Origin: Cognatazoarcus halotolerans
Lineage (GTDB): Bacteria; Pseudomonadota; Gammaproteobacteria; Burkholderiales; Rhodocyclaceae
DNA: 64,000 bases
Assembly: GCF_009800965.1 (NCBI RefSeq)
Contig: NZ_WUAF01000002.1
Coordinates: 356,299 to 420,298 of the forward strand
Reading direction: 5' to 3'
Part shown: piece by piece, positions 47,123 to 63,286 of the stretch
How positions within the stretch are numbered: the stretch's first letter is position 1
Layout: each line of letters begins with the position of its first letter
Notes under the pieces: generated by a model
Database searches by the model: none
Seen by the model: the letters and a program-made list of their open reading frames with translations, nothing else
What the model was told of the DNA's origin: nothing
Program-made: the position numbers and the translations under genes

Positions 47123-48028
47123 TCAGCCCTCGACGCCTCCGCGCATCATGTTCACCATCATGTCGGCAATCTGCTGCGGACTGCGCTTGCCTTCGCGATA
47201 CCACACCGCTACCCAGTTCATCGCACCGAGCAGCGTCAACCGCAACAAGGTGCGATCGACATCCGGTGCGAGCGGAAGGCCCCCGATGATGTCGCGGAAG
47301 ACCAGCTCGTAGGCGCGGCGGTTGTCGGTGATCTTGTCGTAGAGTTCATGGTCGCCGATCATCGCCAGGCTGTGGCCGGTGATGCGGTCGACCGGCGAAC
47401 CCTCGACCATTGCCGAGACATGCACTTCGCAGGCCCGGCGCAGACTGTCCCACGGATCGCTTCCTTCCGCGGCAGCTTGCCTGACGCGCTCCATGACGCG
47501 CTGGAATCCTTCCCGGTGTATTGCCAGATATAGGTCTTCCTTGGCGGGGAAGTGGTGATACACCGAACCCGGCAACAGTCCCACGCTGCGGGCGATGTCG
47601 CGGATCGAGGTGCGATCGTATCCCTGGGCGGCAAAGCGTTCGGCCGCCACATGAAGAATGAGTGCATGACGGCTCGGCGTGTCGCCTTCGGCCGCACCGC
47701 CGGCGGAATTACCTGCTTCGCTCTCGTCCGCAACGACGCCGCTGGCGAGACGGGCGCTCAACTGGCCGCGTTCGAGCAAGCGTTGCTGCTCCGGCGTCAA
47801 TGCTTCGGGGACCCGGTCGGCGAGTGCCTGCAGGCGCTTGACCGCAGTCTCGAGATCGTGCCGTTGCCAGATGTAGCGAACGCCCGATGGCGAAATCCGT
47901 ATTCCGCGTGCACGAAGACGTTCGGCCACGGCGGCCTGACCGAGCGTCGGCTCGGTGCGGGCGAACTCGAGAATTGCTGACTCCGCATCCGGCGCGTCTT
48001 CCATCCCCTGTGCTGTGTGCTGGTTCAT
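47123..48028 (-). CDS. TetR family regulator with additional N-terminal helix-turn-helix domain
   Basis: The 301-residue protein has two potential DNA-binding parts. Residues about 17-65 (EFARTEPTLGQAAVAERLRARGIRISPSGVRYIWQRHDLETAVKRL) resemble the homeodomain-like helix-turn-helix of IS481/IS3-type transposases. After a linker (66-118), residues about 120-168 form a standard TetR helix-turn-helix (ALILHVAAERFAAQGYDRTSIRDIARSVGLLPGSVYHHFPAKEDLY), followed by a C-terminal ligand domain. Most TetR proteins are about 200 residues. The start at 48028 is preceded by AGGAA; the longer frame upstream runs through the intergenic promoter region. It is divergent from the livH catabolic operon, which it probably controls in response to a CoA thioester or acid. 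Confidence 0.88.
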   Translation of the reverse strand: MNQHTAQGMEDAPDAESAILEFARTEPTLGQAAVAERLRARGIRISPSGVRYIWQRHDLETAVKRLQALADRVPEALTPEQQRLLERGQLSARLASGVVADESEAGNSAGGAAEGDTPSRHALILHVAAERFAAQGYDRTSIRDIARSVGLLPGSVYHHFPAKEDLYLAIHREGFQRVMERVRQAAAEGSDPWDSLRRACEVHVSAMVEGSPVDRITGHSLAMIGDHELYDKITDNRRAYELVFRDIIGGLPLAPDVDRTLLRLTLLGAMNWVAVWYREGKRSPQQIADMMVNMMRGGVEG

Positions 48029-48178
48029 TGCTGCGGCATTCCTGCTGTCTGTCGATCGACGTGGCTGACCCCGAATGATAACCGGCGGCGCGCGACGGTG
48101 ATGCGTCGTCTCCGGACGGCCTTCCGCGGGCATGGAAGCGTGCGGCCATTTGTCCATTAAACTTTATTGGCCAAGTGT

Positions 48179-48207
48179 TTGACAAGTTAGTTTGTTCGGG
48201 CTACTGT
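48179..48207 (+). promoter_or_regulatory. Sigma70-type promoter for the catabolic operon
   Basis: TTGACA (48179-48184), 17-base spacer, TACTGT (48202-48207). The -35 is perfect. An 8-bp palindrome TTGGCCAA (48167-48174) sits 4 bases upstream and could be part of an operator. It is 112 bases before the livH ATG. Confidence 0.6.
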
Positions 48208-48318
48208 AGCACCGTCGTCGCTCGATCGACGACGTGGAGCACAGAGCGGCAGGAAGCCGCCAGCAACGGGTTCGCAAACATGGCAACCCGCTCGACCGGG
48301 GCGGGTGTGGAGACAAAT

Positions 48319-49356
48319 ATGGATTTACAGATAGCGATCCTGCTCGGGCAGGATGGCATTACCACAGGTGCGATCTACGCACTGCTGGCGCTGGCGCTGG
48401 TGCTGGTCTTCGCGGTGACCCGCGTAATCTTCATTCCGCAGGGGGAGTTCGTTGCCTTTGGCGCGCTGACGCTCGCCTCGCTGCAGGGCGGCAATACGCC
48501 GGCGACGCTGTGGCTGCTTCTGGGATGTGGCGTTGCAGTGGCTGCGGTGGATGGTCTGGCGGCAGTGCGGCGCGGCGATGCGCGTCGCCTGGTATCGATA
48601 CTGGGCTGGAACCTGGCCTATCCGCTGGCCCTCGCCGCCCTGTTCTACGCAAGCCAGCCGGGCGCCATGCCGATGTTGCTGCAGATCCTGGTGGCGCTGG
48701 CGATCGTCGTGCCGCTGGGGCCGATGATCTACCGGCTGGCCTTCCAGCCGATCGCCGAAGCCCCGGTGCTGATCCTGCTGATCGTCTCGGTGGCGCTGCA
48801 TGTCACCCTGGTCGGCCTCGGCCTGCTCTTCTTCGGTGCCGAGGGAACCCGTACGCCGGCCTTCTCCGATGCGCAGTTCGAACTCGGCTCGATCATGATC
48901 AGCGGGCAGCAGCTCTGGGTTGTCGGCACCTCCGCGCTGCTCATCGCAGTGCTCTACCTGTTCTTCGGGCGAACCATTTACGGCAAGGCCTTGCGGGCGA
49001 CCGCGATCAACCGTAACGGTGCGCGGCTGATGGGCTTCTCGCCGGTCTTCGCGGGCAAGCTCACCTTCCTGCTGGCGGCCTTCATCGGCGCCCTGTCGGG
49101 CGTGCTGATCGCACCGGTCACCACCATCTACTACGACACCGGCTTCCTGATCGGCCTCAAGGGATTCGTCGCCGCGATCATCGGTGGCCTCGCCTCCTAC
49201 CCGCTGGCTGCGGCCGGCGCGCTCACGGTCGGCCTGCTGGAGTCCTTCTCATCCTTCTGGGCGAGTGCCTACAAGGAGGTGATCGTCTTCACCCTGATCA
49301 TTCCGGTGCTGCTCTGGCAGTCGCTGACCAGCCACCACATCGACGAGGAAGAATAA
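48319..49356 (+). CDS. livH: Branched-chain amino acid-type ABC transporter permease (LivH)
   Basis: The 345-residue permease has the LivH start QIAILLGQDGITTGAIYALLALALVLVFAVTRVIFIPQGEFVAFGA, eight or more hydrophobic segments, and the cytoplasmic loop GKALRATAINRNGARLMGFSP that contacts the ATPase. GGAG six bases before the ATG at 48319 fixes the start; the frame is open to 48175 but that part contains the promoter. This HAAT family imports amino acids, urea, or aromatic and other organic acids. It opens the catabolic operon, with livMG 2 bases later. Confidence 0.93.
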   Translation: MDLQIAILLGQDGITTGAIYALLALALVLVFAVTRVIFIPQGEFVAFGALTLASLQGGNTPATLWLLLGCGVAVAAVDGLAAVRRGDARRLVSILGWNLAYPLALAALFYASQPGAMPMLLQILVALAIVVPLGPMIYRLAFQPIAEAPVLILLIVSVALHVTLVGLGLLFFGAEGTRTPAFSDAQFELGSIMISGQQLWVVGTSALLIAVLYLFFGRTIYGKALRATAINRNGARLMGFSPVFAGKLTFLLAAFIGALSGVLIAPVTTIYYDTGFLIGLKGFVAAIIGGLASYPLAAAGALTVGLLESFSSFWASAYKEVIVFTLIIPVLLWQSLTSHHIDEEE

Positions 49357-49358
49357 GC

Positions 49359-51227
49359 ATGAGCAAGCCTGATTCACGCCCCGCTTCGATCGCGCTGCCG
49401 GCAACAGAGCCCGTGGCCGGACGTCGCTTCGCCGGATTCGCCCCCGCACACGTGCTGGTCGCGTTCCTGCTGCTGGTCTCGCTGGCACCGGTGGTGCTGC
49501 CCGAGTTCTACGTCACGCTGCTGAACTACATCGGTCTTTACGCGCTGGTTGCGCTCGGCCTCGTACTACTGACCGGTGTCGGAGGCCTGACCAGCTTCGG
49601 CCAGGCCGCCTTCGTCGGCCTCGGTGCCTATACCACCGGCGTGCTCACGGCGTCTCCGGATCTGCCCGGCTGGCTTGCGTGGGCCGGCGGCTCGCCCTGG
49701 CTGGCGCTGGTGATCGGCCTCTTGCTCACTGCGCTGGTCGCGCTCCTGGTCGGCTCGCTGACCCTGCGCCTGTCGGGGCATTTCCTCCCGCTGGGCACGA
49801 TAGCCTGGGGCATCAGCCTGTATTTCCTGTTCGGCACCATGGAAACCCTGGGCGGGCACACCGGGCTGACCGGCATCCCCTCGATCTCGATCTTCGGCTG
49901 GGAGCTCGACGAGGGCCGCGAGATCTTCTACCTGATCTGGGTCTTCCTGCTTGCCGCGGTGCTGACCACCCGCAACCTTCTCGACTCCCGCGAAGGCCGC
50001 GCGATCCGCGCGCTCAAGGGCGGCATGGTGATGGCCGAGGCGATGGGGGTGAATACCTCGCGCTCGCGGATGGTCATCTTCGTCATCGCCGCGCTGCATG
50101 CCGCCGCGTCGGGGTGGCTGTATGCACACATGCAGCGATTCGTGAATCCGACACCCTTCGGTCTGCACATCGGCATCGAGTACCTGTTCATGGCGGTCGT
50201 CGGTGGCGCGGGTCAGGTGTGGGGCGCAATCGTCGGTGCGGGAATCATCACCGTCATGAAGCAGTGGCTGCAGGACTGGCTGCCCAAATTGTTCGGCGCT
50301 TCGGGCAACTTCGAAGTGATCGTGTTCGGCCTGATGATGGTTGTCATCCTGCACCGTGCCCGTGACGGCGTCTGGCCGTTGCTGGCAAAACTGGTGCCGG
50401 TGCGCGGTCAGCATATCGAGGTCGACGCCACGGCTGCCGCGCTGCCGCGCCGCGAGATGCCGGCACGTGGCGAACGCATCCTCGAGGCCCGCAAGGTGAC
50501 CCGGAAGTTCGGTGGCCTGGTGGCCAACAACGACATGAACCTGCATGTCGAGGCGGGCGAGATCCTGGCCTTGATCGGCCCCAACGGCGCAGGCAAGAGC
50601 ACCATGTTCAACCAGCTCTCCGGTGTCGATACGCCGACCTCCGGTGAGGTGCTGTTTCGCGGCAAGTCGATTGCCGGGCACGCCTCGCGCGAGATTGCCG
50701 GGCTTGGCATGAGCCGCACCTTCCAGCACGTGAAGCTGCTGCCCAAGATGAGCGTGCTCGAGAACGTCGCCATCGGCGCGCACCTGCGCGGCAGCGGCAG
50801 CGTGGTACCGGCCGCCTGGCGGCTCGAGCGTGGCGAGGAGGCGCGACTGATCGCCGAGGCGGCGCATCAGATCAAGCGGGTGGGGCTCGAGGAATACATG
50901 CACGAAGAGGCGGGCTCGCTGGCCCTCGGGCAGCAGCGAATCCTCGAGATCGCCCGTGCGCTGGCTTCCGATCCGTGCCTGCTGCTGCTCGACGAGCCGG
51001 CCGCCGGTCTGCGCTTCAAGGAGAAGGAGGCGCTCGGCGAGCTGCTCAGCAAGCTGCGTTCCGAAGGCATGGCGATCCTGCTGGTCGAGCACGACATGGA
51101 CTTCGTGATGGGGCTCGTCGATCGGGTGGTGGTGATGGAGTTCGGCCAGAAGATCGCCGAGGGCCTGCCGGAAGAAATCCAGAAAAACCCTGCCGTACTT
51201 GAAGCCTACCTGGGAGGCGTGGAATGA
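49359..51227 (+). CDS. Fused ABC permease-ATPase (LivM-LivG fusion)
   Basis: The 622-residue protein fuses two HAAT subunits. Residues about 30-340 are a LivM-type permease ([41 protein letters not shown]). After a short linker, residues about 370-622 are a LivG-type ATPase: Walker [10 protein letters not shown] near 407, Q-loop region [20 protein letters not shown], signature-like [16 protein letters not shown] (LALGQ instead of LSGGQ), Walker [13 protein letters not shown], and H-loop LVEHDMDFV. No stop or frameshift lies between the halves. The end overlaps livF by 4 bases. Confidence 0.93.
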
Positions 51228-51982
51228 ACACGATTGCACAACCGGTGCTTGAAGTGCGCGACCTGTGCGTTGCCTACGGCAAGGTCGAGGCGCTCACCAA
51301 CGCCAACATCCGCGTCGGCGAAGGCCAGATCGTCACCGTGATCGGTCCCAACGGGGCGGGCAAGACGACCATGCTGTCGGCTATCGTCGGGCTGCTCGAA
51401 TCGAAAGGGCAGGTGGCTTTCAACGGCCGGGTCGAGGTCAGCCCGGACGTCGAGCGGATGGTCGCCGGCGGCATGAGCCTGGTGCCCGAAAAGCGCGAGC
51501 TGTTTGGCGAGATGAGCATCGAGGACAACCTGCTGCTTGGCGCCTTTCATCGCTACCGCACCGGCAAGCGCGACCACGCCGAAACCATGAACGAGGTCTT
51601 CGAGCTGTTCCCGCGCCTCAAGGAGCGCCGCGCCCAGCAGGCCGGCACGCTGTCCGGCGGTGAGCGCCAGATGCTGGCGGTCGGCCGCGCCCTGATGGGC
51701 AAGCCGCGCCTGCTGATGCTGGACGAGCCAAGCCTCGGGCTGGCGCCGCTGATTACCCGCGAGATCTTCCGGATCATCGCCGAGCTGCGCAAGACCGGCG
51801 TCTCGATCCTGCTGGTCGAACAGAACGCCCGCGCCGCGCTGGCCGTCGCCGACTACGCCTATGTGCTGGAGACCGGCGGCGTGGCGATGGAGGGGCCGGC
51901 GCACGATCTGCGCGACGACCCGCGCGTGATCGAGACCTATCTCGGCCTGGGTGGAAAGCACCAGGACATGCTGGCGACCTGA
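51224..51982 (+). CDS. livF: ABC transporter ATP-binding protein (LivF type)
   Basis: The 252-residue ATPase has Walker A GPNGAGKTTML near residue 43, a Q-loop with SLVPEKRELFGEMSIEDNL, signature LSGGERQMLAVGRAL, Walker B LLMLDEPSLGLAP, and H-loop LVEQNARAAL, typical of LivF. It pairs with the ATPase half of the upstream fusion. A 152-base gap with a long stem-loop separates it from the binding-protein gene. Confidence 0.94.
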   Translation: MNTIAQPVLEVRDLCVAYGKVEALTNANIRVGEGQIVTVIGPNGAGKTTMLSAIVGLLESKGQVAFNGRVEVSPDVERMVAGGMSLVPEKRELFGEMSIEDNLLLGAFHRYRTGKRDHAETMNEVFELFPRLKERRAQQAGTLSGGERQMLAVGRALMGKPRLLMLDEPSLGLAPLITREIFRIIAELRKTGVSILLVEQNARAALAVADYAYVLETGGVAMEGPAHDLRDDPRVIETYLGLGGKHQDMLAT

Positions 51983-52134: not shown

Positions 52135-53277
52135 ATGAAGATCAAGCAACTCGCCGTACTGTGTTCAGCCGCAGCGCTGCTCGTCAGCCAGCCGGTACTC
52201 GCCGACATCAACGTCGGGGTGTCGCTGTCATCGACCGGGCCTGGGGCGGCCCTCGGCATTCCGGAAAAGAATGCGATCGCGCTGCTGCCTACCTCGGTCG
52301 GTGGTGAGAAGATCAACTACATCGTCCTCGACGACGGCACCGATCCGTCGGCTGCCACCAAGAATGCCCGCAAGCTGGTGACCGAGGACAAGGTCGACGT
52401 GCTGTTCGGATCGTCGGTCACGCCGGCGTCGCTGGCCATGGCCGAAGTTGCGGTCGAAAGCCAGACGCCGCTGATCAGCATGTCGCCGATCAACCTGCCG
52501 GCGGAAAAGAACGTGTGGGTATTCCGGACCCCGCAGCATGTCAACCTGATGGCCAGCGCGCTGGTCGAGCACATGAAGCTCAAGGGGGTGAAGACCCTCG
52601 GCTTCATCGGCTACTCCGATGCCTACGGCGAAGACTGGCTGGTCGGCATCAAGCCGATGCTCGACGCGGCCGGCATCAAGCTCACCAGCACCGAGCGCTT
52701 CAACCGCACCGATACCTCGGTGAACGGGCAGGTGCTCAAGATCGTTGCCAGTCGTCCCGATGCGGTGCTGGTGGTGGCCTCGGGCAGTCCGGCCGCTTTG
52801 CCGCAGAGCTCGCTGATCGAGCGCGGCTTCAAGGGCCAGATCTACCAGACCCACGCCGCTGCCAATCCTGGCTTCCTGAAGGTTGCCGGCAAGGCCGCCG
52901 AGGGCGTGATCATGCCGATCGGCCCGGTCGTGGTGGTCGACCAGATCGAGGATTCCCATCCCTCGAAGAAGATCGGCCAGGCTTTCGTCAAGGACTACGA
53001 GGCCAAGTACGGTGCCGGCAGTTTCTCGTCGTTTGCGGCCTATGCCTTCGATGCCGGGCTGCTCTTCAAGGCCGCCGTTCCAGCCGCGCTGAAAAAAGGC
53101 AAGCCGGGCACCCCGGAATTCCGCAAGGCTTTGCGTGACGCGCTCGAGACCGAAAAGGAAGTGGTCGGCACCGATGGTGTCTTCAACATGACCCCGACCG
53201 ATCACTTCGGCCTCGACGCACGTGGTCGTGTGCTGATCCGCGTTGATAACGGCGGCTACAAGCTGCTTGGCAAGTAA
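52135..53277 (+). CDS. livK: ABC transporter substrate-binding protein (LivK type)
   Basis: The 380-residue periplasmic protein has a signal peptide (MKIKQLAVLCSAAALLVSQPVLA, cleavage before DINVGV) and the type I binding-protein fold of the LivK group: VGVSLSSTGPGAALGIPEKNA, DDGTDPSAATKNARKLVTEDKVDVLFGSS, and GFIGYSDAYGEDW. Relatives bind branched-chain amino acids but also aromatic acids such as benzoate or coumarate; its place directly before an acyl-CoA synthetase argues for an organic acid. It starts 152 bases after livF. Confidence 0.93.
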   Translation: MKIKQLAVLCSAAALLVSQPVLADINVGVSLSSTGPGAALGIPEKNAIALLPTSVGGEKINYIVLDDGTDPSAATKNARKLVTEDKVDVLFGSSVTPASLAMAEVAVESQTPLISMSPINLPAEKNVWVFRTPQHVNLMASALVEHMKLKGVKTLGFIGYSDAYGEDWLVGIKPMLDAAGIKLTSTERFNRTDTSVNGQVLKIVASRPDAVLVVASGSPAALPQSSLIERGFKGQIYQTHAAANPGFLKVAGKAAEGVIMPIGPVVVVDQIEDSHPSKKIGQAFVKDYEAKYGAGSFSSFAAYAFDAGLLFKAAVPAALKKGKPGTPEFRKALRDALETEKEVVGTDGVFNMTPTDHFGLDARGRVLIRVDNGGYKLLGK

Positions 53278-53289
53278 GGAGGTGCAGCC

Positions 53290-55167
53290 ATGGAAACAGG
53301 TGCAATGGCAAAGGCTGCGTCAGGCGAAGAGATGTTCGTTGACCCGACGGTGCTGATCGAAGCCCGTGCGGACGGTACGCGCATCCTGCGCTCCGGCATT
53401 CCGCTGCCGGAAAACTACAGTCGCTGCGTGGGCGAGTGGCTTGAACACTGGGCGCGGGCTGCGCCGGAGCGCCTGTTCCTGGCCGAACGCGACAAGGACG
53501 GCGAATGGCGTCGGCTCACCTATGCCGACGCACGGCGCCGGGTGGTGGCGATCGCGACCTGGCTGCTGGGGCAGAACCTGTCGCCCGAACGGCCGGTGGT
53601 GATTCTCTCCGACAACTCGATCGAGCATGCGCTGCTGATGCTGGCGGCGATGCACATCGGGGTGCCCTCCTGCGCGATCTCGCCGGGCAATTCGCTGATG
53701 TCCACGGACCACGGCAAGCTCAAGGGCAATATTGAGCTGTTGCGTCCGGGTGTGATCTACGCCGATCCCATCGAGCGTTTCATGCCGGCGATCGAGGCGG
53801 TGCGGGACCTGCACAGCGGGGTGGTGGTGGCGGGCGGGGCGAGTGGCGTGGTGGATGGCACGATTCCGTTTTCCGAACTGGAGACGAATGCCAACGAGGC
53901 TGCGGTGATGTCGGCCTTTTCCCGCATCACGCCGGACACCATCGCCAAGTTCCTGTTTACCTCCGGTTCGGTGGGCACGCCCAAGGCGGTCATCAATACC
54001 CAGCGCATGCTGTGCTCGAACCAGAAGGCGAAGGAACTGATGTGGCCATTCCTTGCGTCGGAGCCGCCGGTTCTCGTCGAATGGCTGCCCTGGAGCCATA
54101 CCTTCGGCAGCAATCACGACTTCAACATGGTATTGCGCTGGGGCGGCTCCATCTATATCGATGAAGGCAAGCCGACACCGGCGGGTCTCGAGAAGACGAT
54201 CCGGAACCTCAAGGAAATCTCTCCGACGGTGTACTTCAACGTGCCGCGTGCCTACGACATGCTGGTGCCGGTGCTGCGGGCCGACAAGCAGTTGCGCGAC
54301 AACTTCTTCCGCCGGCTGAAATTCATCTTCTACGCGGGCGCCGCGCTGCCGCATCACCTGTGGGTTGCGCTCGAGGATCTGTCGGTCGAGGCGACCGGTC
54401 ACCGGATCCTGATGGTGTCCGGTTGGGGCTCCACCGAGACGGCACCGCTCTCGGCGGACAGTCACTTCCGCTCGGTACGCCCCGGGGTGATCGGGGTGCC
54501 GATTCCGGGCACTGCGCTCAAGCTGGTGCCCGCGGCCGACAAGATGGAAGTGCGCATCAAGGGGCCCAACGTCTTTCCCGGCTACTGGCGCCAGCCCGAC
54601 ATGACCGCCAACGCGTTCGATGACGAGGGCTACTACATGATCGGCGACGCGGTCGAGTTCGTCGACCTGGCCCACCCGACACGGGGGCTGCTCTTCGACG
54701 GTCGGGTCGGCGAGGACTTCAAGCTGCTGACCGGAACCTGGGTGCACGTCGGCTCATTGCGGGTGAGCGGCATCGACGCCATGAAACCGGTGGCCCAGGA
54801 CATCGTGGTGGCCGGTCACGACCGCGACGAGATCGGCTTCCTGGTGTTTCCCAACGTTCCCGAGTGCCGGGCCCTGTGCCCCGGGCTGCCGCCCGACGCG
54901 CCGGTCGAGCAAGTGCTCTCCAACCCGGCCGTGATCAACCAGGTGCGCGCCGGCCTGCAGGCGCTCAGGCAGCGCGGCGGGGGCACCTCCACCTATGCCA
55001 GCCGTGCCTTGCTGCTGGCGGAGCCGCCCTCGGTCGAGGCGGGCGAGATCACCGACAAGGGCTACATCAACCAACGGGCGGTGCTGAACCGGCGCAGCGA
55101 CCTGGTCGAGTATCTGTACGCGGATGTCCCGGACAAGACCGTCATCACGGTCCATTCCGCAGTCTGA
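53290..55167 (+). CDS. Acyl-CoA synthetase, feruloyl-CoA synthase-like
   Basis: The 625-residue ANL-superfamily enzyme would activate a carboxylic acid with ATP and CoA. The AMP-binding P-loop is FLFTSGSVGTPKAVI near residue 220, with SGWGSTETAPL near 378 and YYMIGDAVEFVD-type sequence near 450. The overall layout (IPLPENYSRCVGEWLEHWARAAPERLFLAER at the N-terminus, SLRVSGIDAMKPVAQDIVVAGHDRDEIGFLVFP, and the C-terminal ITDKGYINQRAVLNRR) recalls feruloyl-CoA synthases. AAGGAGG before the ATG is a strong ribosome-binding site. The true substrate is unknown; a phenylpropanoid or similar acid is likely given the downstream beta-oxidation genes. Confidence 0.9.
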   Translation: METGAMAKAASGEEMFVDPTVLIEARADGTRILRSGIPLPENYSRCVGEWLEHWARAAPERLFLAERDKDGEWRRLTYADARRRVVAIATWLLGQNLSPERPVVILSDNSIEHALLMLAAMHIGVPSCAISPGNSLMSTDHGKLKGNIELLRPGVIYADPIERFMPAIEAVRDLHSGVVVAGGASGVVDGTIPFSELETNANEAAVMSAFSRITPDTIAKFLFTSGSVGTPKAVINTQRMLCSNQKAKELMWPFLASEPPVLVEWLPWSHTFGSNHDFNMVLRWGGSIYIDEGKPTPAGLEKTIRNLKEISPTVYFNVPRAYDMLVPVLRADKQLRDNFFRRLKFIFYAGAALPHHLWVALEDLSVEATGHRILMVSGWGSTETAPLSADSHFRSVRPGVIGVPIPGTALKLVPAADKMEVRIKGPNVFPGYWRQPDMTANAFDDEGYYMIGDAVEFVDLAHPTRGLLFDGRVGEDFKLLTGTWVHVGSLRVSGIDAMKPVAQDIVVAGHDRDEIGFLVFPNVPECRALCPGLPPDAPVEQVLSNPAVINQVRAGLQALRQRGGGTSTYASRALLLAEPPSVEAGEITDKGYINQRAVLNRRSDLVEYLYADVPDKTVITVHSAV

Positions 55168-55183: not shown

Positions 55184-55954
55184 ATGAGCGAACAACTCGT
55201 CAGAACGTCGCAAGACGGAAACATCTACACCATCGCGCTGGCCCGGCCGGCCAAGCGCAACGCAGTCAGCGATCGCCTGCTGGCTGCGCTGGAGGCGGCC
55301 TTCCTGGCAACGCCGGAGGGGACCCGGGCGATCATCCTGAGCGGTGACGGCAAGCATTTCTGTGCCGGCCTGGATCTCGCCGAGCACCAGCACCGCGAGC
55401 CCTTCGGTGTGATGCAGCATTCCCAGAGCTGGCACCGAATCTTCCATCGCATCCAGAACGGCGGCATCCCGGTCATCTCGGCCCTGCACGGCGCGGTGAT
55501 CGGCGGCGGACTGGAGCTGGCAACCGCCACCCACATCCGCGTTGCCGAGCCGGACACCATCTATCAGCTGCCGGAAGGCCGCCACGGCATCTTCGTCGGT
55601 GGTGGCGCCTCCGTTCGGGTTGCGAAGATCATCGGCCCGGGCCGGATGTGCGAAATGATGCTCACCGGCCGCATCCTCGATGCCGACGAAGGCCAGCGCC
55701 TGGGCCTGTCGCATTACCTGGTCGGCGAAGGCGAGAGCCTCGCCAAGGCCCAGCAACTCGCGGCGCGCGTCGCCGAGAACGCGCCGATGGCTAACTGGGC
55801 GATGTGCACCGCGATCGCCCGCATCGACAACATGGCGAGCGACGACGGCTTCTTTGTCGAGTCGCTGACCGCCGCACTCACCCAGACCAGCCCGGAAGTG
55901 GCCGAACGCATCGGCGCCTTCCTCGAGCGCAAAGGACAAGGACCCCGCACATGA
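55184..55954 (+). CDS. Enoyl-CoA hydratase/isomerase family protein
   Basis: The 256-residue crotonase-fold protein has the oxyanion-hole region HFCAGLDLAEH and the two catalytic glutamates expected for hydratases, in GGGLELATATHIRVA and LPEGRHGIFVGGG. Presence of both argues for a true hydratase, though related lyases share them. The start at 55184 follows AAGGAAAA. The end overlaps the thiolase start by 4 bases. It should hydrate the 2-enoyl-CoA made by the acyl-CoA dehydrogenase. Confidence 0.93.
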   Translation: MSEQLVRTSQDGNIYTIALARPAKRNAVSDRLLAALEAAFLATPEGTRAIILSGDGKHFCAGLDLAEHQHREPFGVMQHSQSWHRIFHRIQNGGIPVISALHGAVIGGGLELATATHIRVAEPDTIYQLPEGRHGIFVGGGASVRVAKIIGPGRMCEMMLTGRILDADEGQRLGLSHYLVGEGESLAKAQQLAARVAENAPMANWAMCTAIARIDNMASDDGFFVESLTAALTQTSPEVAERIGAFLERKGQGPRT

Positions 55955-57213
55955 GCACTTCGAACGCATTCGCCGCTTCCGAGGCGGCAGCCCTCTCCGC
56001 CACCTACGACGACATCTGGCTGGTGGCCGGCCAGCGCACCCCGTTTGCCGACTACAACGGCCCGCTGCGGGACGCCTCCGCCACCGATCTGGGCATCTGC
56101 GCCGCCCGCGCGCTGTTTGCCAGCAGCGGCATCCCGGCCGGTGAGGTCAACGCCATCATCGCCGGCAACATGGCCCAGTCGAGCTTCGACGCCTACTTCC
56201 TGCCGCGTCACATCGGGCTCTACTCCGGCGTGAATCCCAATGTGCCGGCACTGCTGGTCCAGCGGCTGTGCTGCACCGGCTTCGAGACCATCCTCAACGC
56301 CGCCGAGCACATCGCCCTCGGCAAGGCCAGCGTGGTGCTGGCGGTCGGAGCCGAATCGATGTCGCGAAACCCGGTGGCGGCCTACACCCATCGTGCGGGC
56401 TTCCGCATGGGGCAGGTCGATTTCCGTGACTTCCTGTGGGAAGCCACCAAGGACACCGCACCGGGCATCAGCATGGGTGACACCTCGGAGAACCTGGCCA
56501 AGCGCTACGGCATCAGCCGCGAAGAGGTCGATCGCTTTGCCGAGCGCAGCTTCGGCCGGGCTGCCGCCGCATGGGATGCCGGCTGGTATGCCGACGAGGT
56601 GTCGGCCGTGAGCAACGCCAAATGGGAGCTCGAAGGCTACAAGCCGCGCGGCATCAAGCTGGCAGACCGCCTCGAGACCTTTGCGCGCGACGGTCATGTG
56701 CGTGCCACCGCCTTCGAGACGCTGCAGAAGCTCAAGCCGGCCTTCGGCGGAGTGCAGACCGGCGGCAACAGCTCGGCTATCGTCGATGGCGCGGCGGCGG
56801 TGATCGTCGCGCGCGGCGACTGGGTGCGGGCCAACGGGCTCAAGCCGCTGGCGCGCATCGTCGGCGGTGCCGCGGTGGCCGTGCCGCCCGAGATCATGGG
56901 GATCGGCCCGGCGCCGGCCATCCGTGCCGCGGCAGCCAGGTGCGGCATCGCGGTCAGCGACATCGACCGCATCGAGATCAACGAGGCCTTCGGCGCCCAG
57001 TTCCTGGCCTGCCAGCACGAGCTCGGGTTCGACCCGGAGCGCGCCAACAGCCGCGGCGGTGCGATCGCCATCGGTCATCCGCTGGGCGCCTCGGGTGTGC
57101 GCCTGACCCACACCGTGGCCCGCCAGCTCAAGGCGGATGGTGTGCAGTACGGCGTCTCGTCGGCCTGCGCGGGTGGTGGCCAGGGTGTCGCCGTGGTGCT
57201 GGAAAACGTCTGA
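55951..57213 (+). CDS. Thiolase (acetyl-CoA acyltransferase)
   Basis: The 420-residue thiolase has the nucleophilic cysteine in [13 protein letters not shown], the [17 protein letters not shown] histidine motif, and the second active-site cysteine in [18 protein letters not shown]. It would release acetyl-CoA from a 3-ketoacyl-CoA. [11 protein letters not shown] is also present. Upstream in-frame sequence to 55804 belongs to the hydratase gene. It overlaps that gene by 4 bases and is followed by the dehydrogenase after 14. Confidence 0.95.
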
Positions 57214-57227
57214 ACGGAGCCTCGATC

Positions 57228-57995
57228 ATGAAAACCGAAAACAATACCTTCATCGTCACCGGCGGCGCCTCCGGTCTGGGGACTGCGACCGTGCGGGCGC
57301 TGCACGGGGCCGGCGCGAACGTGGTGATCGCCGATCTCAACACCGAGCAGGGCGACGCGCTGGTTGCCGAGCTCGGCAGCCGCGCGGCCTTTGCCCGCAC
57401 CAACGTCGCAGACGAAGCCGACGCGCAGGCGGCCGTCGCCCTCGCGGTGTCGCGCTTCGGCGGCCTGCAGGGCCTGGTGAGCTGTGCCGGCATCGGCAAC
57501 GCCGCGCGGGTGCTCGGCAAGGAAGGGCCGATGCCGCTCGAGGCCTTCAGCCGCTCGATCCAGGTGAACCTGGTCGGCACCTTCAACATGATCCGCATCG
57601 CGGCCGATACCATGGCCAAGGGCGAGCCGGGGCCGGACGGCGAGCGCGGGGTGATCATCAACACCGCTTCGGTGGCGGCCTACGACGGCCAGATCGGCCA
57701 AGCGGCCTACGCCGCCTCGAAGGGCGGCATCGTCGCGATGACGCTGCCGATCGCCCGCGAGCTGGCGCGCAGCGGCATCCGCGTGATGACCATCGCCCCG
57801 GGCCTGTTCCTGACGCCGATGATGCACACCCTGCCCGCCGAGGTACAGAAGTCGCTCGGCGAGGCGGTGCCTTTCCCGTCGCGGCTGGGCCAGCCCGAGG
57901 AGTTCGCACGGCTGGCGCTGTCGATCATCGACAACGTGATGCTCAACGGCGAAACCATCCGGCTGGATGGCGCGATCCGCCTTGCGCCCCGCTGA
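57228..57995 (+). CDS. Short-chain dehydrogenase, 3-hydroxyacyl-CoA dehydrogenase type 2-like
   Basis: The 255-residue SDR has NAD-binding [36 protein letters not shown] with the Ser-Tyr-Lys triad, and [11 protein letters not shown]; the late block [20 protein letters not shown] resembles human HSD17B10-type 3-hydroxyacyl-CoA dehydrogenases. It would oxidise the 3-hydroxyacyl-CoA between the hydratase and thiolase steps, replacing a FadB-type enzyme. GGAG precedes the ATG. Confidence 0.93.
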
Positions 57996-58015
57996 TCAGC
58001 CGGAGACTGGTAGCC

Positions 58016-59599
58016 ATGACACGATTCATCGAAGCCGGTGACGTCGCCCGGCTGATTCCCAACGGCGCCACCCTGTATTGCACCGGGATGGGTCTTGCCG
58101 GTTTTGCAGAGGAAGTCGCGAAGGCGGTTTCCGAAGCCTTCCAGAGCACCGGTCATCCCCGCGACCTGACGCTCTACCACGCCACCGGCGTGGGCAACGG
58201 GCGCGACCGGGGCGTTCACCATTTTGCCCATGAGGGCTTGCTCAAGCGCATCGTCGGCGGACACTTCGGCGTCGGTGGACCGAGCCTCATGAAGCTGATC
58301 ATGGAAAACCGCCTCGAGGCCTACAACATGCCCCAGGGCGCGCTGTGCAGGCTGCCGCGCGAGATTGCCGGGCGCCGGCCCGGCTTCATCACCCGGGTCG
58401 GGCTGGGTACCTTCGTTGATCCGCGTATCGAGGGCGGCAAGGTAAACGCCGCTGCGGTCGAGGACCTGGTCGAGGTGATGCACCTCGACGGCGAGGAGTG
58501 GCTGTACTTCAGGGCGCCGAAGGTGGATGTGGCCCTGATCCGCGGCTCGGTCGCCGACGAGAACGGCAACATCACCATGGAGCGCGAGGGTGTGCTGCTC
58601 GAGAGCCTGTCGGTCGCCCAGGCGGCCAGGGCGTGTGGCGGCATCGTGATCGCCCAGGTCGAGCATGTGGTCAAGGCCGGCTCGCTGCATCCGCGCGCCG
58701 TGACGGTGCCCGGCATCGTGGTGGACTACGTGGTGAAGGCCCGCCCGGAGAATCATCTGCAGACCATGAGCACCTATTACAACCCGGCCTACTCGGGGGA
58801 TATCAAGGTGGTGCGGGGTTCCCTGGCCAGCATGCCGCTGGACCCGCGCAAGATCATCGCGCGGCGTGCCGCAATGGAACTGACACCGGGCGCGGTGGTG
58901 AATCTGGGCATCGGAATGCCCGAAGGCGTGGCCGCGGTGGCGGCGGAAGAGCACATCGATCACCTGATGTCGCTGACGCTGGAGACCGGACCGATCGGTG
59001 GCGTGCCTGCAGGCGGCTTCGACTTCGGCCACGCCAGCAATGCCGACGCGGTGATCGAGCAGGCGGCGCAGTTCGATTTCTACGACGGCGGCGGCATCGA
59101 TGTCGCCTTCCTCGGGCTGGCCCAGACCGATGGAAACGGGAATGTGAACGTCAGCAAGTTCAGCGGCCGGCCGGTTGGTTGCGGGGGCTTCATCAACATC
59201 ACCCAGAACGCGAAGAAGGTGGTGTTCTGCGGCACTTTCACTGCTGGTGACTCCGATCTCGGCATCGAGGATGGAAAACTGGCCATCCGTAGCGATGGCA
59301 CGGGCTGCAAGTTCATGGAAGAGGTCGAGCAGATCACCTTCAGCGGTGATTACGCACGGCGAATCGGCCAGACCGTGCTGTATGTGACCGAGCGGGCGGT
59401 ATTCCGTCTCGGCGATGCGGGGGTCGAGTTGATCGAGATCGCCCCCGGTGTGGACCTCGAGCGGGACATCCTCGCCCACATGCGCTTCAAGCCGCTGATC
59501 CGCGATCTGACCCTGATGGACGTGGAAATATTCCGTCCCGAATGGCAGCGGCTCGGCGCATTGCTCGGACAGCGTCCGGCCGGCCGGGAGGCGCGATGA
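58016..59599 (+). CDS. Acyl-CoA:acetate/3-ketoacid-type CoA transferase (fused alpha-beta)
   Basis: The 527-residue protein is a family I CoA transferase with both halves in one chain: the alpha part (DVARLIPNGATLYCTGMGLAGFAEEVAKAV, GHFGVGGPSLMKLI) and, from about residue 280, the beta part (PLDPRKIIARRAAMELTPGAVVNLGIGMPEGVA) with the catalytic glutamate in SLTLETGPIGGVPAGG. Such propionate/acetate CoA transferases move CoA between acids without ATP. It could activate the substrate as an alternative to the synthetase or recycle CoA from a product. The stop overlaps the thioesterase start (ATGA). Confidence 0.92.
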   Translation: MTRFIEAGDVARLIPNGATLYCTGMGLAGFAEEVAKAVSEAFQSTGHPRDLTLYHATGVGNGRDRGVHHFAHEGLLKRIVGGHFGVGGPSLMKLIMENRLEAYNMPQGALCRLPREIAGRRPGFITRVGLGTFVDPRIEGGKVNAAAVEDLVEVMHLDGEEWLYFRAPKVDVALIRGSVADENGNITMEREGVLLESLSVAQAARACGGIVIAQVEHVVKAGSLHPRAVTVPGIVVDYVVKARPENHLQTMSTYYNPAYSGDIKVVRGSLASMPLDPRKIIARRAAMELTPGAVVNLGIGMPEGVAAVAAEEHIDHLMSLTLETGPIGGVPAGGFDFGHASNADAVIEQAAQFDFYDGGGIDVAFLGLAQTDGNGNVNVSKFSGRPVGCGGFINITQNAKKVVFCGTFTAGDSDLGIEDGKLAIRSDGTGCKFMEEVEQITFSGDYARRIGQTVLYVTERAVFRLGDAGVELIEIAPGVDLERDILAHMRFKPLIRDLTLMDVEIFRPEWQRLGALLGQRPAGREAR

Positions 59600-60015
59600 G
59601 CGTGCGCAACGTCTACCGCATGCGCATCGCCTTCAGCGATTGCGATCCGGCGCAGATCGTCTTCTTCGCCAACTACTTCAAGTGGTTCGACACCTCGGCC
59701 CGCGAGTTCTTCACTGCTTGCGGGGTACCCCAGTGGCGCGAGACCCAGGCCGAGCGCGGCATCATCGGTACGCCGCTGGTTGACGCCCAGGCGCGCTTCG
59801 TCAATTCCGCGACCTACGGCGAGGACATCGAGATCGAGTCCTGTGTCGAGGCGTGGCGCGGCAAGAGCTTCGTCATGCGCCACGTCGCAAGGCGCAGCGA
59901 CACGGTGTTGTGCGAAGGGCGCGAGGTGCGGGTTTTCGCGGTGCAGGATCCCGACAACCCGCTGCGCATCAAGGCGGTGCCGATACCCGAGGACTATCGG
60001 GCGATGTGCAGCTGA
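59596..60015 (+). CDS. 4-hydroxybenzoyl-CoA thioesterase family (4HBT) protein
   Basis: The 139-residue hotdog-fold thioesterase has the active-site region FSDCDPAQIVFFANYFKWFDTSAREFF, with the catalytic aspartate of the 4-hydroxybenzoyl-CoA thioesterase branch. Aryl-CoA thioesterases of this type release a free aromatic acid and CoA, useful to relieve CoA trapping. The start overlaps the CoA transferase stop by 4 bases. Confidence 0.92.
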   Translation: MSVRNVYRMRIAFSDCDPAQIVFFANYFKWFDTSAREFFTACGVPQWRETQAERGIIGTPLVDAQARFVNSATYGEDIEIESCVEAWRGKSFVMRHVARRSDTVLCEGREVRVFAVQDPDNPLRIKAVPIPEDYRAMCS

Positions 60016-60089
60016 TCCGTCTCACCGGGCGGGGCGGGGCGCGAGATTTGCCGCGGCCCGACCGCCCATTCAGGAATGCGAGGTGTTCA

Positions 60090-61886
60090 ATGTACGACTA
60101 CAAGGCCCCGTTGCGGGACATGCAGTTCATTCTTGCCGAACTGGCCGGGCTCGAGGAGATCGGCCAGCTTCCGGGTTGCGAGGATGCGTCGCCGGACCTG
60201 GTTTCGGCCATCATGGAAGAGGCCGGCAAGTTTGCCGCCGGTGTGCTGGCACCGATCAACCAGCAAGGCGACCTGCAGGGTTGCCGACTGGACGAGGACG
60301 GCTCTGTGCACACGCCGGACGGCTGGCAGTCCGCCTACGATCAGTTTTGCGAGGCTGGCTGGATGGGGCTGTCGCTGCCCCAGGAATTCGGCGGGCAGGG
60401 ACTGCCCAAGCTGGTGTCGACGCCGGTGTGGGAGATGTGGTTCTCCACCAACATGGCGTTCACGATGTTGCCCCAGCTCAACGTCGGTCAGGCAGAGGCC
60501 TTGCTGATCGCTGCCAGCGAGGAGCAGAAGCAGACCTGGCTGCACAAGGTGGTGAGTGGCGAATGGGCCAGCACCATGAACCTCACCGAGCCGCAGGCCG
60601 GCTCTGACCTTGCCGCCACCCGCACCCGCGCAGAACCGCAGGGCGACGGCAGCTACAAGCTGTTCGGCCAGAAGATCTTCATCTCCTATGGCGAGCACGA
60701 CCTGGCCCCCAATATCGTGCACCTGGTGCTGGCCCGTCTGCCGGACGCGCCGGCCGGGGTCAAGGGACTGTCGCTGTTCATCGTGCCCAAGTACCTGCTC
60801 GATGCCGACGGCAATCCGGCCGGGCGTAACGATGTGCGCTGCATCTCCATCGAACACAAGATGGGCATCCATGGCAGCCCGACGTGCACCCTGTCATTCG
60901 GTGACGGCGGGGGAGCGGTCGGCTGGCTGGTAGGCAAGCCCAACCGGGGTCTCGAAACCATGTTCATCATGATGAACGAGGCACGCTTCGGCGTCGGGGT
61001 GCAGGGCGCAGGGCTCGGCGAGCGGGCTTACCAGATGGCCCTGGGCTATGCCCGCGAACGGGTGCAGGGACGCACCATGGCAACCGGCGAGGGCAGCCAG
61101 ACGATCATCCATCATCCCGACGTCAAGCGAATGCTGCTGTCGATGCGCGCCCGGGTGATGGCGATGCGTGCCTTGTTGTACACCGCGGCCGGATGGTTCG
61201 ACATTGCCCATAAGCATCCCGATGCCGCGGTGGCGGACAGGCATCGGCGCTTCGTCGATCTGCTGATGCCGGTGGCCAAGGGATGGTGTACCGAGCTCGG
61301 CAACGATGTCTGCGACGACGCGATCCAGATCTTCGGCGGCATGGGATTCGTCGAGGAAACCGGTATCGCCCAGTTCTTCCGGGACGCTCGCATCATCACC
61401 ATCTACGAGGGCACCACCGGCATCCAGGCCAACGATCTGGTCGGTCGCAAGATCCTGCGTGAGAACGGTGAGACGCTGCGCGAACTGATTGCCGAGTTGC
61501 GGGCCACGGTGGCCGAACTCAGCAGTGACGGTGCGCTGGGCGAGATCAGTGATGCGCTTTCCGACAGCATCGATGCGCTCGAGTCGGCATCCGAGTGGAT
61601 TCTTCGCAATGGCCACGACCATCTTGCGGAAGTGTTGGCCGGCGCGGTGCCGTTTCTGTACGTGCTGGGTACCGTCTGCGGGGGCTGGCAGCTTGCCCGC
61701 GCTGCGCTGGCGGCAAAAAGGCGGCTTGGTTTGCCGGAGCCCGGCTACGATGGCGACTACCTGAAGAGCCTGGTCGAACTGGCGCGCTTTTACATGGCGA
61801 CGGTCGGCCCTCAGGCGGCCGCGCTGGCTGCTACGGTGCGAGAAGCCGGTGACGCGATGGTCCGCTTTCCGGTCGAGACCTTCTAG
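60090..61886 (+). CDS. Acyl-CoA dehydrogenase, long (DmdC/FadE-like) type
   Basis: The 598-residue flavoenzyme is of the ~600-residue acyl-CoA dehydrogenase group that includes DmdC. The N-terminus MYDYKAPLRDMQFILAEL, FAD/substrate part MNLTEPQAGSDLAATRT, and the catalytic glutamate in ITIYEGTTGIQANDLVGRKI are visible, followed by an extra C-terminal helical domain (about 470-598). It introduces the 2,3 double bond as first oxidation step of the pathway. A 74-base gap before it has GAGGTG as ribosome-binding site. It is the last gene of the operon; a perfect 16-bp stem-loop follows. Confidence 0.93.
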   Translation: MYDYKAPLRDMQFILAELAGLEEIGQLPGCEDASPDLVSAIMEEAGKFAAGVLAPINQQGDLQGCRLDEDGSVHTPDGWQSAYDQFCEAGWMGLSLPQEFGGQGLPKLVSTPVWEMWFSTNMAFTMLPQLNVGQAEALLIAASEEQKQTWLHKVVSGEWASTMNLTEPQAGSDLAATRTRAEPQGDGSYKLFGQKIFISYGEHDLAPNIVHLVLARLPDAPAGVKGLSLFIVPKYLLDADGNPAGRNDVRCISIEHKMGIHGSPTCTLSFGDGGGAVGWLVGKPNRGLETMFIMMNEARFGVGVQGAGLGERAYQMALGYARERVQGRTMATGEGSQTIIHHPDVKRMLLSMRARVMAMRALLYTAAGWFDIAHKHPDAAVADRHRRFVDLLMPVAKGWCTELGNDVCDDAIQIFGGMGFVEETGIAQFFRDARIITIYEGTTGIQANDLVGRKILRENGETLRELIAELRATVAELSSDGALGEISDALSDSIDALESASEWILRNGHDHLAEVLAGAVPFLYVLGTVCGGWQLARAALAAKRRLGLPEPGYDGDYLKSLVELARFYMATVGPQAAALAATVREAGDAMVRFPVETF

Positions 61887-61954: not shown

Positions 61955-62536
61955 TTACTTCGCTTCCGGCCCGAGTCCCATCGGTGCGGGCATCAGATTG
62001 ACCACCTTGCGGAACAGGTCGCGGAACTCCTTCTGCGTGCCGACGCCGACCAGCGGGTCAGCGTTGGAGCCGAAGGCCGAGTCGATCTCGGTCCAGTCCT
62101 CGGGCAGGAGCGATTTTTCGGCGAGCGGCAGGATGACATCCTCCTCCTTGCGCATGTGCTCCCACTGGAACTGCGTGTACTCGGCCATTGCCTTGGCAAA
62201 GGCATCGAAGCGCGAAGGGTCGCGCTCGTACTCCTGCAGGGCGGTCGCAACGCGCTGAATGAACTCGGGTCCGCAGCGGTGCTCGTCTTCGAGTTCGTCG
62301 AGCATCGGCGCGGCCGAGGGATCGCGTTCGCGCAGGGTGTGGTAGACGTACTCGTCCTCCTTGGGGTGATGCAGCTTGTCGGGGAAATCCTTGACGTAGG
62401 CGAGCATCGACTTGAACAGCGCGAAATCGGGCTTCTGCTTGCCGTCGCGAATCTGTCCGATCAGGTACTCCAGGCCACGCAGTACCGCGGCAAGGGCACG
62501 GTGCTCGTCCTTGATGATGGTGATGGCTTTGCGCAT
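61955..62536 (-). CDS. Hemerythrin-like domain protein
   Basis: The 193-residue four-helix protein carries the di-iron ligand set of hemerythrins: IIKDEHRALA (His 11), LHHPKEDEYVY (His and Glu), ELEDEHRCGPEF and WEHMRKEEDVILP. Proteins of this kind sense or bind oxygen, nitric oxide or iron. The tail after residue 155 is not typical. It lies 32 bases downstream of the livF-type gene on the same strand, so it may be its last operon member; the reason for the pairing is unclear. Confidence 0.92.
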   Translation of the reverse strand: MRKAITIIKDEHRALAAVLRGLEYLIGQIRDGKQKPDFALFKSMLAYVKDFPDKLHHPKEDEYVYHTLRERDPSAAPMLDELEDEHRCGPEFIQRVATALQEYERDPSRFDAFAKAMAEYTQFQWEHMRKEEDVILPLAEKSLLPEDWTEIDSAFGSNADPLVGVGTQKEFRDLFRKVVNLMPAPMGLGPEAK

Positions 62537-62568: not shown

Positions 62569-63285
62569 TCAGACGCCGAGCAGTCCGGACAGCGCCGGAT
62601 CGTCCGCGACCTTCGAGGCCGGGCCGGCAAGCTCGACCAGCCCTTTCTGCAATACCAGCGCGTTGTCGCTGTGCTCCAGCACGCGCCGGAAATCGCGGTC
62701 GACGATCAGCGTTGCGATGCCGCTGTCGCGAATGTCGCCGATCACGTTCCAGATCTCGTTCACGATCAGCGGCGCCAGACCTTCGGTGGCCTCGTCGAGA
62801 ATGACCAGGTCGGGCTGGGTCATCAGCGCGCGTCCGATCGACACCATCTGCTGTTCGCCACCGGAAAGTTGCGAGCCGAGGTTGGTGAGCCGTTCGGTGA
62901 GGCGCGGAAAGGTCTCGAGCACCCGTTCGTAGCTCCAGCCCCGGCTTGCTTCACGCGAGGGGCGGGCGGCCATGATGAGGTTCTCGCGCACGGTGAGATT
63001 CGGGAATACCCCGCGCCCCTCCGGCACGTAGGCGACGCCGCGGCGTGCCACCTCGTGCGGTTTGCTCTTCGAGACGTCGTGTCCGAACAGGTGGATCTGT
63101 CCATCCCGCTGGGTGACGTGGCCGAGAAGGGTGCGGATCAGGGTGCTCTTTCCCATGCCGTTGCGGCCGAGCAGGCCGACGGTCTCGCCACGGGCGATCT
63201 TAAGATCGATGCCGTGCAAGACGTGACTCGATCCGTACCAGGCATGGATGTTCCGGGCGTCGAGGATTGGATCCGTCGGGGCCAT
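62569..63285 (-). CDS. livF: ABC transporter ATP-binding protein (LivF type), second system
   Basis: The 238-residue ATPase has Walker A GRNGMGKSTLIR near residue 39, Q-loop RGVAYVPEGRGVFPNLTVRENL, signature LSGGEQQMVSIGRAL, Walker B LVILDEATEGLAP and a D/R-type H-loop (LIVDRDFRRVLEHSD) in which the usual LVEQ/H reads LIVDRDF; the normal His switch is therefore not obvious. One base separates it from the upstream livG-type gene. Confidence 0.92.
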   Translation of the reverse strand: MAPTDPILDARNIHAWYGSSHVLHGIDLKIARGETVGLLGRNGMGKSTLIRTLLGHVTQRDGQIHLFGHDVSKSKPHEVARRGVAYVPEGRGVFPNLTVRENLIMAARPSREASRGWSYERVLETFPRLTERLTNLGSQLSGGEQQMVSIGRALMTQPDLVILDEATEGLAPLIVNEIWNVIGDIRDSGIATLIVDRDFRRVLEHSDNALVLQKGLVELAGPASKVADDPALSGLLGV

Positions 63286-63286
63286 G

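Follow-up and report, generated by a model that had tools for sequence, protein, structure and literature searches.

The described regulator closest to the one reported here is PprR (EbN1_C30510) of Aromatoleum aromaticum EbN1, a TetR-like repressor controlling the 3-(4-hydroxyphenyl)propanoate gene cluster EbN1_C30520-70, where catabolite repression and an unknown activation mechanism are also involved; the accessible portion of that source mentions neither a second DNA-binding domain nor an operator (PMC9765128). MbdR of Azoarcus sp. CIB resembles the PprR type in being a TetR repressor of an anaerobic aromatic-acid pathway that is released by an aromatic acyl-CoA, 3-methylbenzoyl-CoA, but at 24.9 kDa it has the size of a TetR protein with one domain pair, and its 18-bp operator reads ATACN10GTAT (PMC4424350, available part). 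Two helix-turn-helices (HTHs) in one TetR-type chain are known from Mce3R of Mycobacterium tuberculosis, so an earlier, sequence-only reading of our locus goes slightly too far in its premise that known TetR proteins carry a single DNA-binding domain in each monomer; Mce3R differs from our protein, however, in consisting of two fused TetR units and binding a nonpalindromic operator, and no transposase-type domain is described in the available part of the source (PMC11667970).

Close solved structures of the TetR part of our protein are DarR, AibR (solved with isovaleryl-CoA and operator DNA), KstR2 and FadR, whose chains of ~190-231 residues leave no room for an extra domain of the size considered here. 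New transcription factors of eukaryotes are known to arise when a host protein takes over the DNA-binding domain of a transposase, and vertebrate transcription factors are further examples of host-transposase fusions. Eukaryotic F-box genes with a Tc1/mariner HTH, as far as the accessible text goes, also place a transposase DNA-binding domain on a host protein (PMC12062965). The fusion reported here is unlike the eukaryotic ones in being bacterial and in having as its partner a repressor that already possessed its own DNA-binding domain. For prokaryotes, the available portion of a review of mobile-element recruitment covers phage- and antitoxin-derived regulators and the origin of Cas1 and Cas9 from transposon enzymes, and names no transposase-derived transcription factor (PMC8987985). 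The class of regulator and its biological role (PprR, a phenylpropanoid repressor) are probably already known; our search of the openly licensed literature turned up neither a TetR protein with a fused IS481 domain nor an account of the captured transposase domain or of the composite operator.

Here we report on one gene in a 64,000-nucleotide stretch of the Cognatazoarcus halotolerans genome (the whole of this stretch is called the window). Our analysis confirms that 47123-48028 encodes a TetR-type regulator with an extra N-terminal domain, confidently folded in prediction and joined to the rest by a linker predicted to be disordered:

47123..48028, minus strand: PprR-like TetR regulator with a putatively transposase-derived N-terminal domain, open reading frame of 301 aa
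47744..47995, minus strand: IS481-transposase-type HTH and next helix, residues 12-95
47675..47740, minus strand: linker, residues 97-118, of low conservation, pLDDT <50 at residues 100-116
47519..47659, minus strand: TetR_N HTH, residues 124-170 (Pfam PF00440, E=5.3e-16, above cut-off)
47132..47461, minus strand: TetR_C_24, residues 190-299 (Pfam PF17932, E=8.1e-14, above cut-off)

The open reading frame and the TetR_N match bear out the sequence-only reading, which had described a 301-residue TetR regulator with an extra N-terminal segment. Pfam finds TetR_N as a single stretch, and a double TetR chain of the Mce3R type is ruled out, the second TetR unit being absent. In an AlphaFold2 model built with 60 homologues, helices of the N-terminal domain (N-domain) span residues 9-25, 31-40, 47-56, 62-72 and 79-95, and the disorder that the sequence-only reading had named as a reason to abandon its proposal is not predicted, residues 11-90 having block means of pLDDT of 85-97. 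Linker residues 100-116 fall below 50, the TetR fold begins at residue 120, and from residue 163 onwards the model contains only helices, bar single-residue strand marks, as in an all-helical C-terminal ligand/dimer domain. With its TetR_N HTH and this predicted all-helical C-terminal domain, the protein is a member of the TetR family. Foldseek matched the TetR part to TetR regulators (E down to 2.8e-8), and the nearest solved folds include acyl-CoA-responsive regulators. PDB 4ich from Saccharomonospora viridis is a 311-residue TetR protein whose TetR part begins only near residue 109, the chain that was searched comprising 193 residues only. Modelled by itself, the N-domain has helices nearly identical to those of the full-length model. 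Foldseek matched nothing to it below E=0.6; VIA-align 2 placed DNA-binding HTHs near the top, mixed with unrelated rows, among them FapR (Z 6.5, rmsd 2.2, 54 aligned), the Pax5 paired domain (Z 6.2, rmsd 3.7, 53 aligned) and ArgR (Z 6.1, rmsd 1.9, 54 aligned), all with Z-scores in a range that may reflect a mere common arrangement.

Sequence comparison identifies the N-domain as a homologue of the second DNA-binding domain and following helix of IS481-type transposases (NF033577; L077, L219, L221 and L224). It had earlier been likened to the HTHs of IS481/IS3 transposases and proposed for a domain search. With residues 1-116 alone as query, the NCBIfam IS481 model NF033577 matched residues 12-78 (E=4.1e-8, 33.1 bits; the cut-off for the whole protein is 224), HTH_32 matched residues 13-54 under its Pfam cut-off (E=3.6e-4, 21.5 bits, against 33.7) and the IS3 model did less well (E=6.6e-4); the IS481 side of the comparison is thus upheld and the IS3 side weakened. 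Chance does not account for this match: every one of the 60 homologues in the alignment hits the IS481 model with E<=1e-3. Along 78 residues the N-domain shares 49% identity with a DDE transposase at locus L077 (E=3e-19; hhalign probability 99.1), and the similarity spans the HTH and continues into the next helix, ahead of the DDE core there. That transposase, whose element is present as two identical 1,221-bp copies in one genome, carries HTH_29, HTH_32 (also below cut-off, 29.6 vs 33.7) and rve, and shares 12 of the 13 invariant N-domain residues, the exception, T61, being Ser there. In a putative recognition region, S46, G49, V50, R51, W54 and H57 are invariant or nearly so in the fused set, and 11 of 15 transposase-type sequences have all six residues. 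Unlike IS481 transposases, the window regulator is without the first HTH (HTH_29) and the DDE domain, rve being absent from its 301 residues at E<=10 (Pfam). Of what defines an IS481 transposase it has the second, HTH_32-type DNA-binding domain and not the integrase core; since only this part is kept, the captured piece would be the second half of a bipartite transposase DNA-binding region rather than a transposase.

The fusion is widespread among relatives. In the GTDB family, 34 of 199 genomes (14 of 68 genera, own genome included) match from query residue ~10-18 to the end, with 43-78% identity when the own genome is excluded, and all 38 loci from these genomes are fused, 25 of them having a protein identical to that of a named-genome locus. 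The best 80 of 351 relatives in named genomes comprise 77 fused and three unfused loci (L155, L156, L158); 76 of the 77 fused proteins are mutually distinct, and L119 is cut at a contig end within the N-domain. A recent insertion or a frameshift artefact is ruled out by these 77 of 80 named and 38 of 38 family loci. Fused hosts in this best-80 set are mostly Rhodocyclales, with Burkholderiales, Thiothrix and other Gammaproteobacteria as well, and include Azoarcus, Parazoarcus, Aromatoleum, Thauera, Zoogloea, Denitromonas, Rhodocyclus, Thiothrix, Thiolinea, Sedimenticola and Marichromatium. A class search with residues 1-184 in 143 genomes gave, besides the window, one full fusion (G272, the same gene as L106 and so no extra case) and one unfused relative (G285, 39%). 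A search with the N-domain matched 11 genomes out of 299 in the phylum; outside the own genome the open frames were of 141-381 aa and transposase-like where read, and no other regulator fusions of the N-domain were seen among these 11. None of the 642 plasmid records that matched covers 80% of the window protein.

Mean information per column in 39 sequences is 3.20 bits for residues 13-66 and 3.38 for the TetR HTH (119-168), with 2.86 for the ligand domain and 1.98 for the linker, and this near equality of the two HTHs argues that the N-domain is under strong constraint. In a tree of the N-domain (38 rows, 26 fused and 12 transposase), the fused rows lie on one side of a branch with support 90/82, recovered in 85% of bootstrap trees; in a tree of the TetR part (52 rows, 27 fused and 25 unfused), they again lie on one side of a branch (89/81, 90% of bootstrap trees), and on each tree the fused label needs one change. 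The fusion probably arose by one capture, which these supports fit but do not prove.

Divergent from the regulator, across 290 bases (48029-48318) if LivH starts at the chosen ATG at 48319 (its longest open frame starts at 48175), lies an operon:

48319..49356, plus strand: LivH-type permease (BPD_transp_2, Pfam), first gene of the divergent operon
49359..51227, plus strand: LivM-LivG fusion, permease and ATPase in one chain (BPD_transp_2 and ABC_tran, Pfam)
51224..51982, plus strand: LivF-type ABC ATPase (Pfam)
52135..53277, plus strand: LivJ-type binding protein (Peripla_BP_6, Pfam)
53290..55167, plus strand: acyl-CoA synthetase (PRK12582 model, 775.9 bits, cut-off 777), presumably feruloyl-CoA-synthetase-like
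55184..55954, plus strand: enoyl-CoA hydratase family (PRK08150)
55951..57213, plus strand: thiolase (acetyl-CoA C-acyltransferase)
57222..57995, plus strand: short-chain dehydrogenase
58010..59599, plus strand: CoA transferase, FadX-like
59602..60015, plus strand: thioesterase-like (4HBT_2, Pfam)
60087..61886, plus strand: acyl-CoA dehydrogenase

These genes suggest uptake and beta-oxidation of an aromatic acid bearing a side chain. Beyond the operon lie, on the minus strand, a 193-aa hemerythrin-domain protein (61955-62536; PF01814, E=4.3e-18) and a second LivF/LivG-like ATPase pair (62569-63964; ABC_tran in both, BCA_ABC_TP_C in the second). Of the 77 fused loci, 47 have at least one of LivJ, LivH and the ligase in the examined stretch, many stretches ending at contig ends. 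At locus L059, in a genome that we take to be Aromatoleum aromaticum EbN1, a fused regulator 58% identical to the window protein lies divergently to genes for LivJ, a ligase, a hydratase, a thiolase, a dehydrogenase and an acyl-CoA dehydrogenase; the six genes matched equal the number expected of C30520-70 if tags run in tens. The L059 regulator fits PprR, given this gene order and the assumed identity of the genome, and PprR homologue is accordingly the name that suits the window gene best. By its homology to the L059 regulator over the full length and the shared divergent LivJ, ligase and hydratase genes it fits the PprR type, with the difference that LivH, LivM-G, LivF, CoA transferase and thioesterase-like genes are extra in the window operon. 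The primary PprR paper is reportedly that of Vagts et al. 2021.

The intergenic region contains a candidate operator:

48158..48191, minus strand: candidate extended operator, 34 bp, left half consensus and right half degenerate
48186..48191, minus strand: left outer arm, ACTAAC
48177..48181, minus strand: left inner half-site, CAAAC, of the site type common to unfused relatives
48158..48163, minus strand: right outer arm position, AGTTTA here (degenerate; GTTAGT in some relatives)
48179..48184, plus strand: TTGACA within the operator, a possible -35 box for the catabolic operon

An exact ACTAACTTGTCAAAC stands at 48177-48191 on the minus strand, and the right inner half is GGCCA, a poor match. 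The window operator scores 49.4 bits with a matrix partly trained on this very site, the next best position in the window scoring -1.4. The pattern ACTAACTTGTCAAACNNTTG has one exact match in the window's genome, here, and two more at 3 mismatches, compared with 3 matches for its reversed control. TACTGT, which agrees with the -10 consensus at 3 of 6 positions, follows TTGACA by 17 bp; a promoter scan reported no promoter or terminator at its threshold.

New here is the tendency of fused regulators to have an extended candidate operator with outer arms. Upstream of these genes is a shared ACTAAC-TTGT-CAAAC, then N4, GTTNN, N4 and partly GTTAGT, giving a predicted operator of the form ACTAAC-N4-CAAAC-N4-GTTNN-N4-GTTAGT. 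The core, ACTAACTTGTCAAAC or a one-base-longer form with at most 2 mismatches, occurs upstream in the window, in 52 of the 77 fused loci and in none of the 3 unfused ones (together 53 of 81 regions), and in 0 of 1,600 scored regions of shuffled controls; counting against the reading proposed below, the core upstream of L085, L086, L113, L121, L140, L145 and L151 has 3-5 mismatches. The inner palindrome of the fused operators is the site found at unfused relatives, and the outer arms lie one helical turn further out. Many unfused relatives have the inner palindrome only (e.g., CAAACAATTGTTTG, CAAACATATGTTTG, CAAACGATTGTTAC), and a CAAAC-N4-GTTTG-type palindrome (8-10/10), likely the operator of this TetR subgroup, lies upstream of unfused L158, L161, L165-L170, L205, L207, L212, L213 and L215. 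Unfused relatives adjoin acyl-CoA genes in 12 of 13 annotated plasmid records (the exception being L214), the records of L206, L207 and L212, which carry no annotation there, being outside the 13.

When each arm was sought at a set distance from the best-scoring inner site and had to match at 5 or more of its 6 positions, an outer arm accompanied 38 of 66 fused sites and 0 of 21 unfused sites, from 78 and 24 regions scanned, the inner site being chosen by score alone and the consensus site being missed in some loci, the window included. The 78 comprise the window, 76 named loci (the 77 minus L119) and L204, a repeat of L106; when L204 and repeated sites are left out, at least one arm is present in 36 of 58 distinct fused sites vs 0 of 20 unfused, a contrast that is post hoc, the motif having been found first in the fused set, and that represents one evolutionary event, the rows being related and several unfused sites coming from one clade. 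The left arm occurs in 21 of these 58 sites, the right in 25 and both in only 10, a count in which the left arm of a second class, shifted by one base, does not figure. A stricter inner site gives an arm in 31 of 41 fused vs 0 of 13 unfused sites. Several of the unfused sites, those that reach an inner score of 7/10, are possibly not true operators; in L206, L207, L211, L212 and L215 the region stops where the match begins rather than at a known gene start.

When the right side was left free, the left arm paired best about centre 17.5, which is the inner dyad (mean 3.46/6, at least 5/6 in 9 of 28 sites; means of 0.64-2.79 at other centres). In the second class, formed by 14 of loci L138-L154 with the left arm one base further out, pairing was 5.67/6 at centre 18 (9 sites), with side peaks of 4.44 and 4.22 from a GTTAGTTAGT repeat. 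Seven members of this class that were measured have 13-15 residues between R87 and the TetR start, vs 31 in the window, a shorter linker that should still be enough for one helical turn (~34 A). A scan of the whole stretch of 22 fused loci located sites 1.7-3.7 kb from the regulator in L128, L132, L135 and L157 (34.7-47.4 bits), where the upstream regions are without the element; three of these four displaced sites stand directly before an enoyl-CoA-hydratase-like gene, and here, by position, the motif follows the regulated genes rather than the regulator's own start. Against the reading proposed below, no good site was found in the examined stretch of fused L083, L088, L108-L110, L114-L118, L133, L144 and L146. 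L108-L110 and L114-L118 (Aromatoleum and relatives) are paralogous fused regulators without an ACTAAC-type operator in the examined stretch, and most have beside them a ligase-like gene that shares only 24-26% identity with the ligase of the window.

Based on these observations, we suggest, at a probability of roughly 0.6, that the window gene is a PprR-type repressor with a captured IS481 domain, in which the TetR HTHs would bind inner sites and the N-domains the arms. The fusion, the IS481 homology, the conservation, the predicted fold and disordered linker, the recurrent neighbourhood and the extended operator are apparent at the level of sequence and prediction. An ancestor of the PprR-type repressor of phenylpropanoid (hydroxycinnamate/phenylpropanoate) uptake and beta-oxidation genes would have gained, at its N-terminus, the second DNA-binding domain of an IS481 transposase. 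One repressor dimer would then cover the extended operator, its two TetR HTHs holding the inner palindrome (CAAAC-N4-GTTTG type) and the transposase-derived domains, each on a flexible tether, reaching outward one helical turn to an ACTAAC/GTTAGT arm apiece; these contacts may add affinity and specificity, and arms 9-10 bp beyond the inner half-sites would lie on the same DNA face. As the -35-like TTGACA of the operon promoter is inside the operator, binding would block RNA polymerase. An aromatic acyl-CoA, the product of the operon's ligase, may release the repressor, as suggested by the fold neighbours AibR (isovaleryl-CoA), KstR2 and FadR and by the MbdR precedent.

A history in which the IS481 domain was joined once to a TetR repressor, the operator then evolving a second pair of half-sites to become a four-point, two-fold-symmetric composite across Rhodocyclales and some Gammaproteobacteria, has in our view slightly better than even odds. 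The sequence-only reading had offered two possibilities, a dimer touching DNA at four points or a separate site for the extra domain in the divergent region before the catabolic operon. Four half-sites about one dyad, the arrangement that a dimer would require if each subunit had two DNA-binding domains, do exist in part of the relatives and lend the first possibility indirect support, but with the right arm and right inner half degenerate, four equal contacts are not evident in the window; a conserved operator is indeed present in the divergent region, but as one composite site more likely than as a separate one. Only the left outer arm being intact, predicted binding in the window is probably asymmetric, and the extra domain probably either acts on one side of the operator or the right side tolerates degeneracy.

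The same long operator could instead accommodate two or more TetR dimers (a dimer-of-dimers), the arms being degenerate TetR half-sites and the N-domain doing nothing specific. The arm sequence CTAAC is one base from the inner CAAAC, so that arms may be extra TetR half-sites, and L145, L148, L150 and L151 have CTAAC/GTTAG at the inner half-site itself; the PDB relative that a sequence profile places closest, DarR, forms a dimer-of-dimers on DNA, a mode that the available part of the source also ascribes to several TetR-family proteins (PMC10636190). We nevertheless regard this arrangement as unlikely: where unfused relatives have this type of inner palindrome, the arms are missing (0 of 20 distinct sites), an outer arm and the inner half-site on its side have the same orientation, which leaves no inverted partner at N4 spacing, and the N-domain is conserved about as much as the TetR HTH. 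That conservation could in turn reflect a fold retained for protein contacts (dimer stability, RNA polymerase or another regulator) rather than for DNA, and some fused proteins do lack arms nearby; we consider this improbable, because S46, G49, V50, R51, W54 and H57 are kept as in 11 of 15 transposase-type sequences and the arms go with the fusion (36 of 58 vs 0 of 20). Least probable, and quite doubtful, is that the conserved DNA represents nothing more than the -35 and -10 boxes of two divergent, overlapping promoters, which enclose a short TetR operator of the ordinary kind. In favour of this, many members have in TTTGACAA, read on the operon strand, a good -35 sequence, and the right arm might reach into the -10 region of the regulator itself; against it, ACTAAC falls between the boxes of the operon promoter, the two arms are inverted relative to each other around the inner dyad and the whole element recurs in other gene arrangements (L128, L132, L135, L157). 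Part of the left-side conservation may nonetheless be promoter, since the TTGT that separates the arm from the inner site occurs on one side only and agrees with a -35 box.

Unfused relatives with a short palindrome and fused ones with added arms can be compared as a "before" and an "after", making the co-evolution of regulator and site following a domain gain directly testable, and the PprR group gains a concrete candidate operator. The ends of three IS elements have TGT at the tip and CTGACA further inward in common, and a comparison of these ends with the operator arms gave no clear match. TGTCA is found in the operator core too, and ACTACT, in both ends of one element, resembles the ACTACC of some operators; such short matches are, by rough estimate, expected by chance, and we give this likeness no weight. 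IS481-type elements with ends TGT...CTGACA lie at 2342-3562 of L077, 833-2093 of L221 and 796-1995 of L224, and 7-bp direct repeats flank several IS481-type copies (L077, L159, L221, L228, L234, L235).
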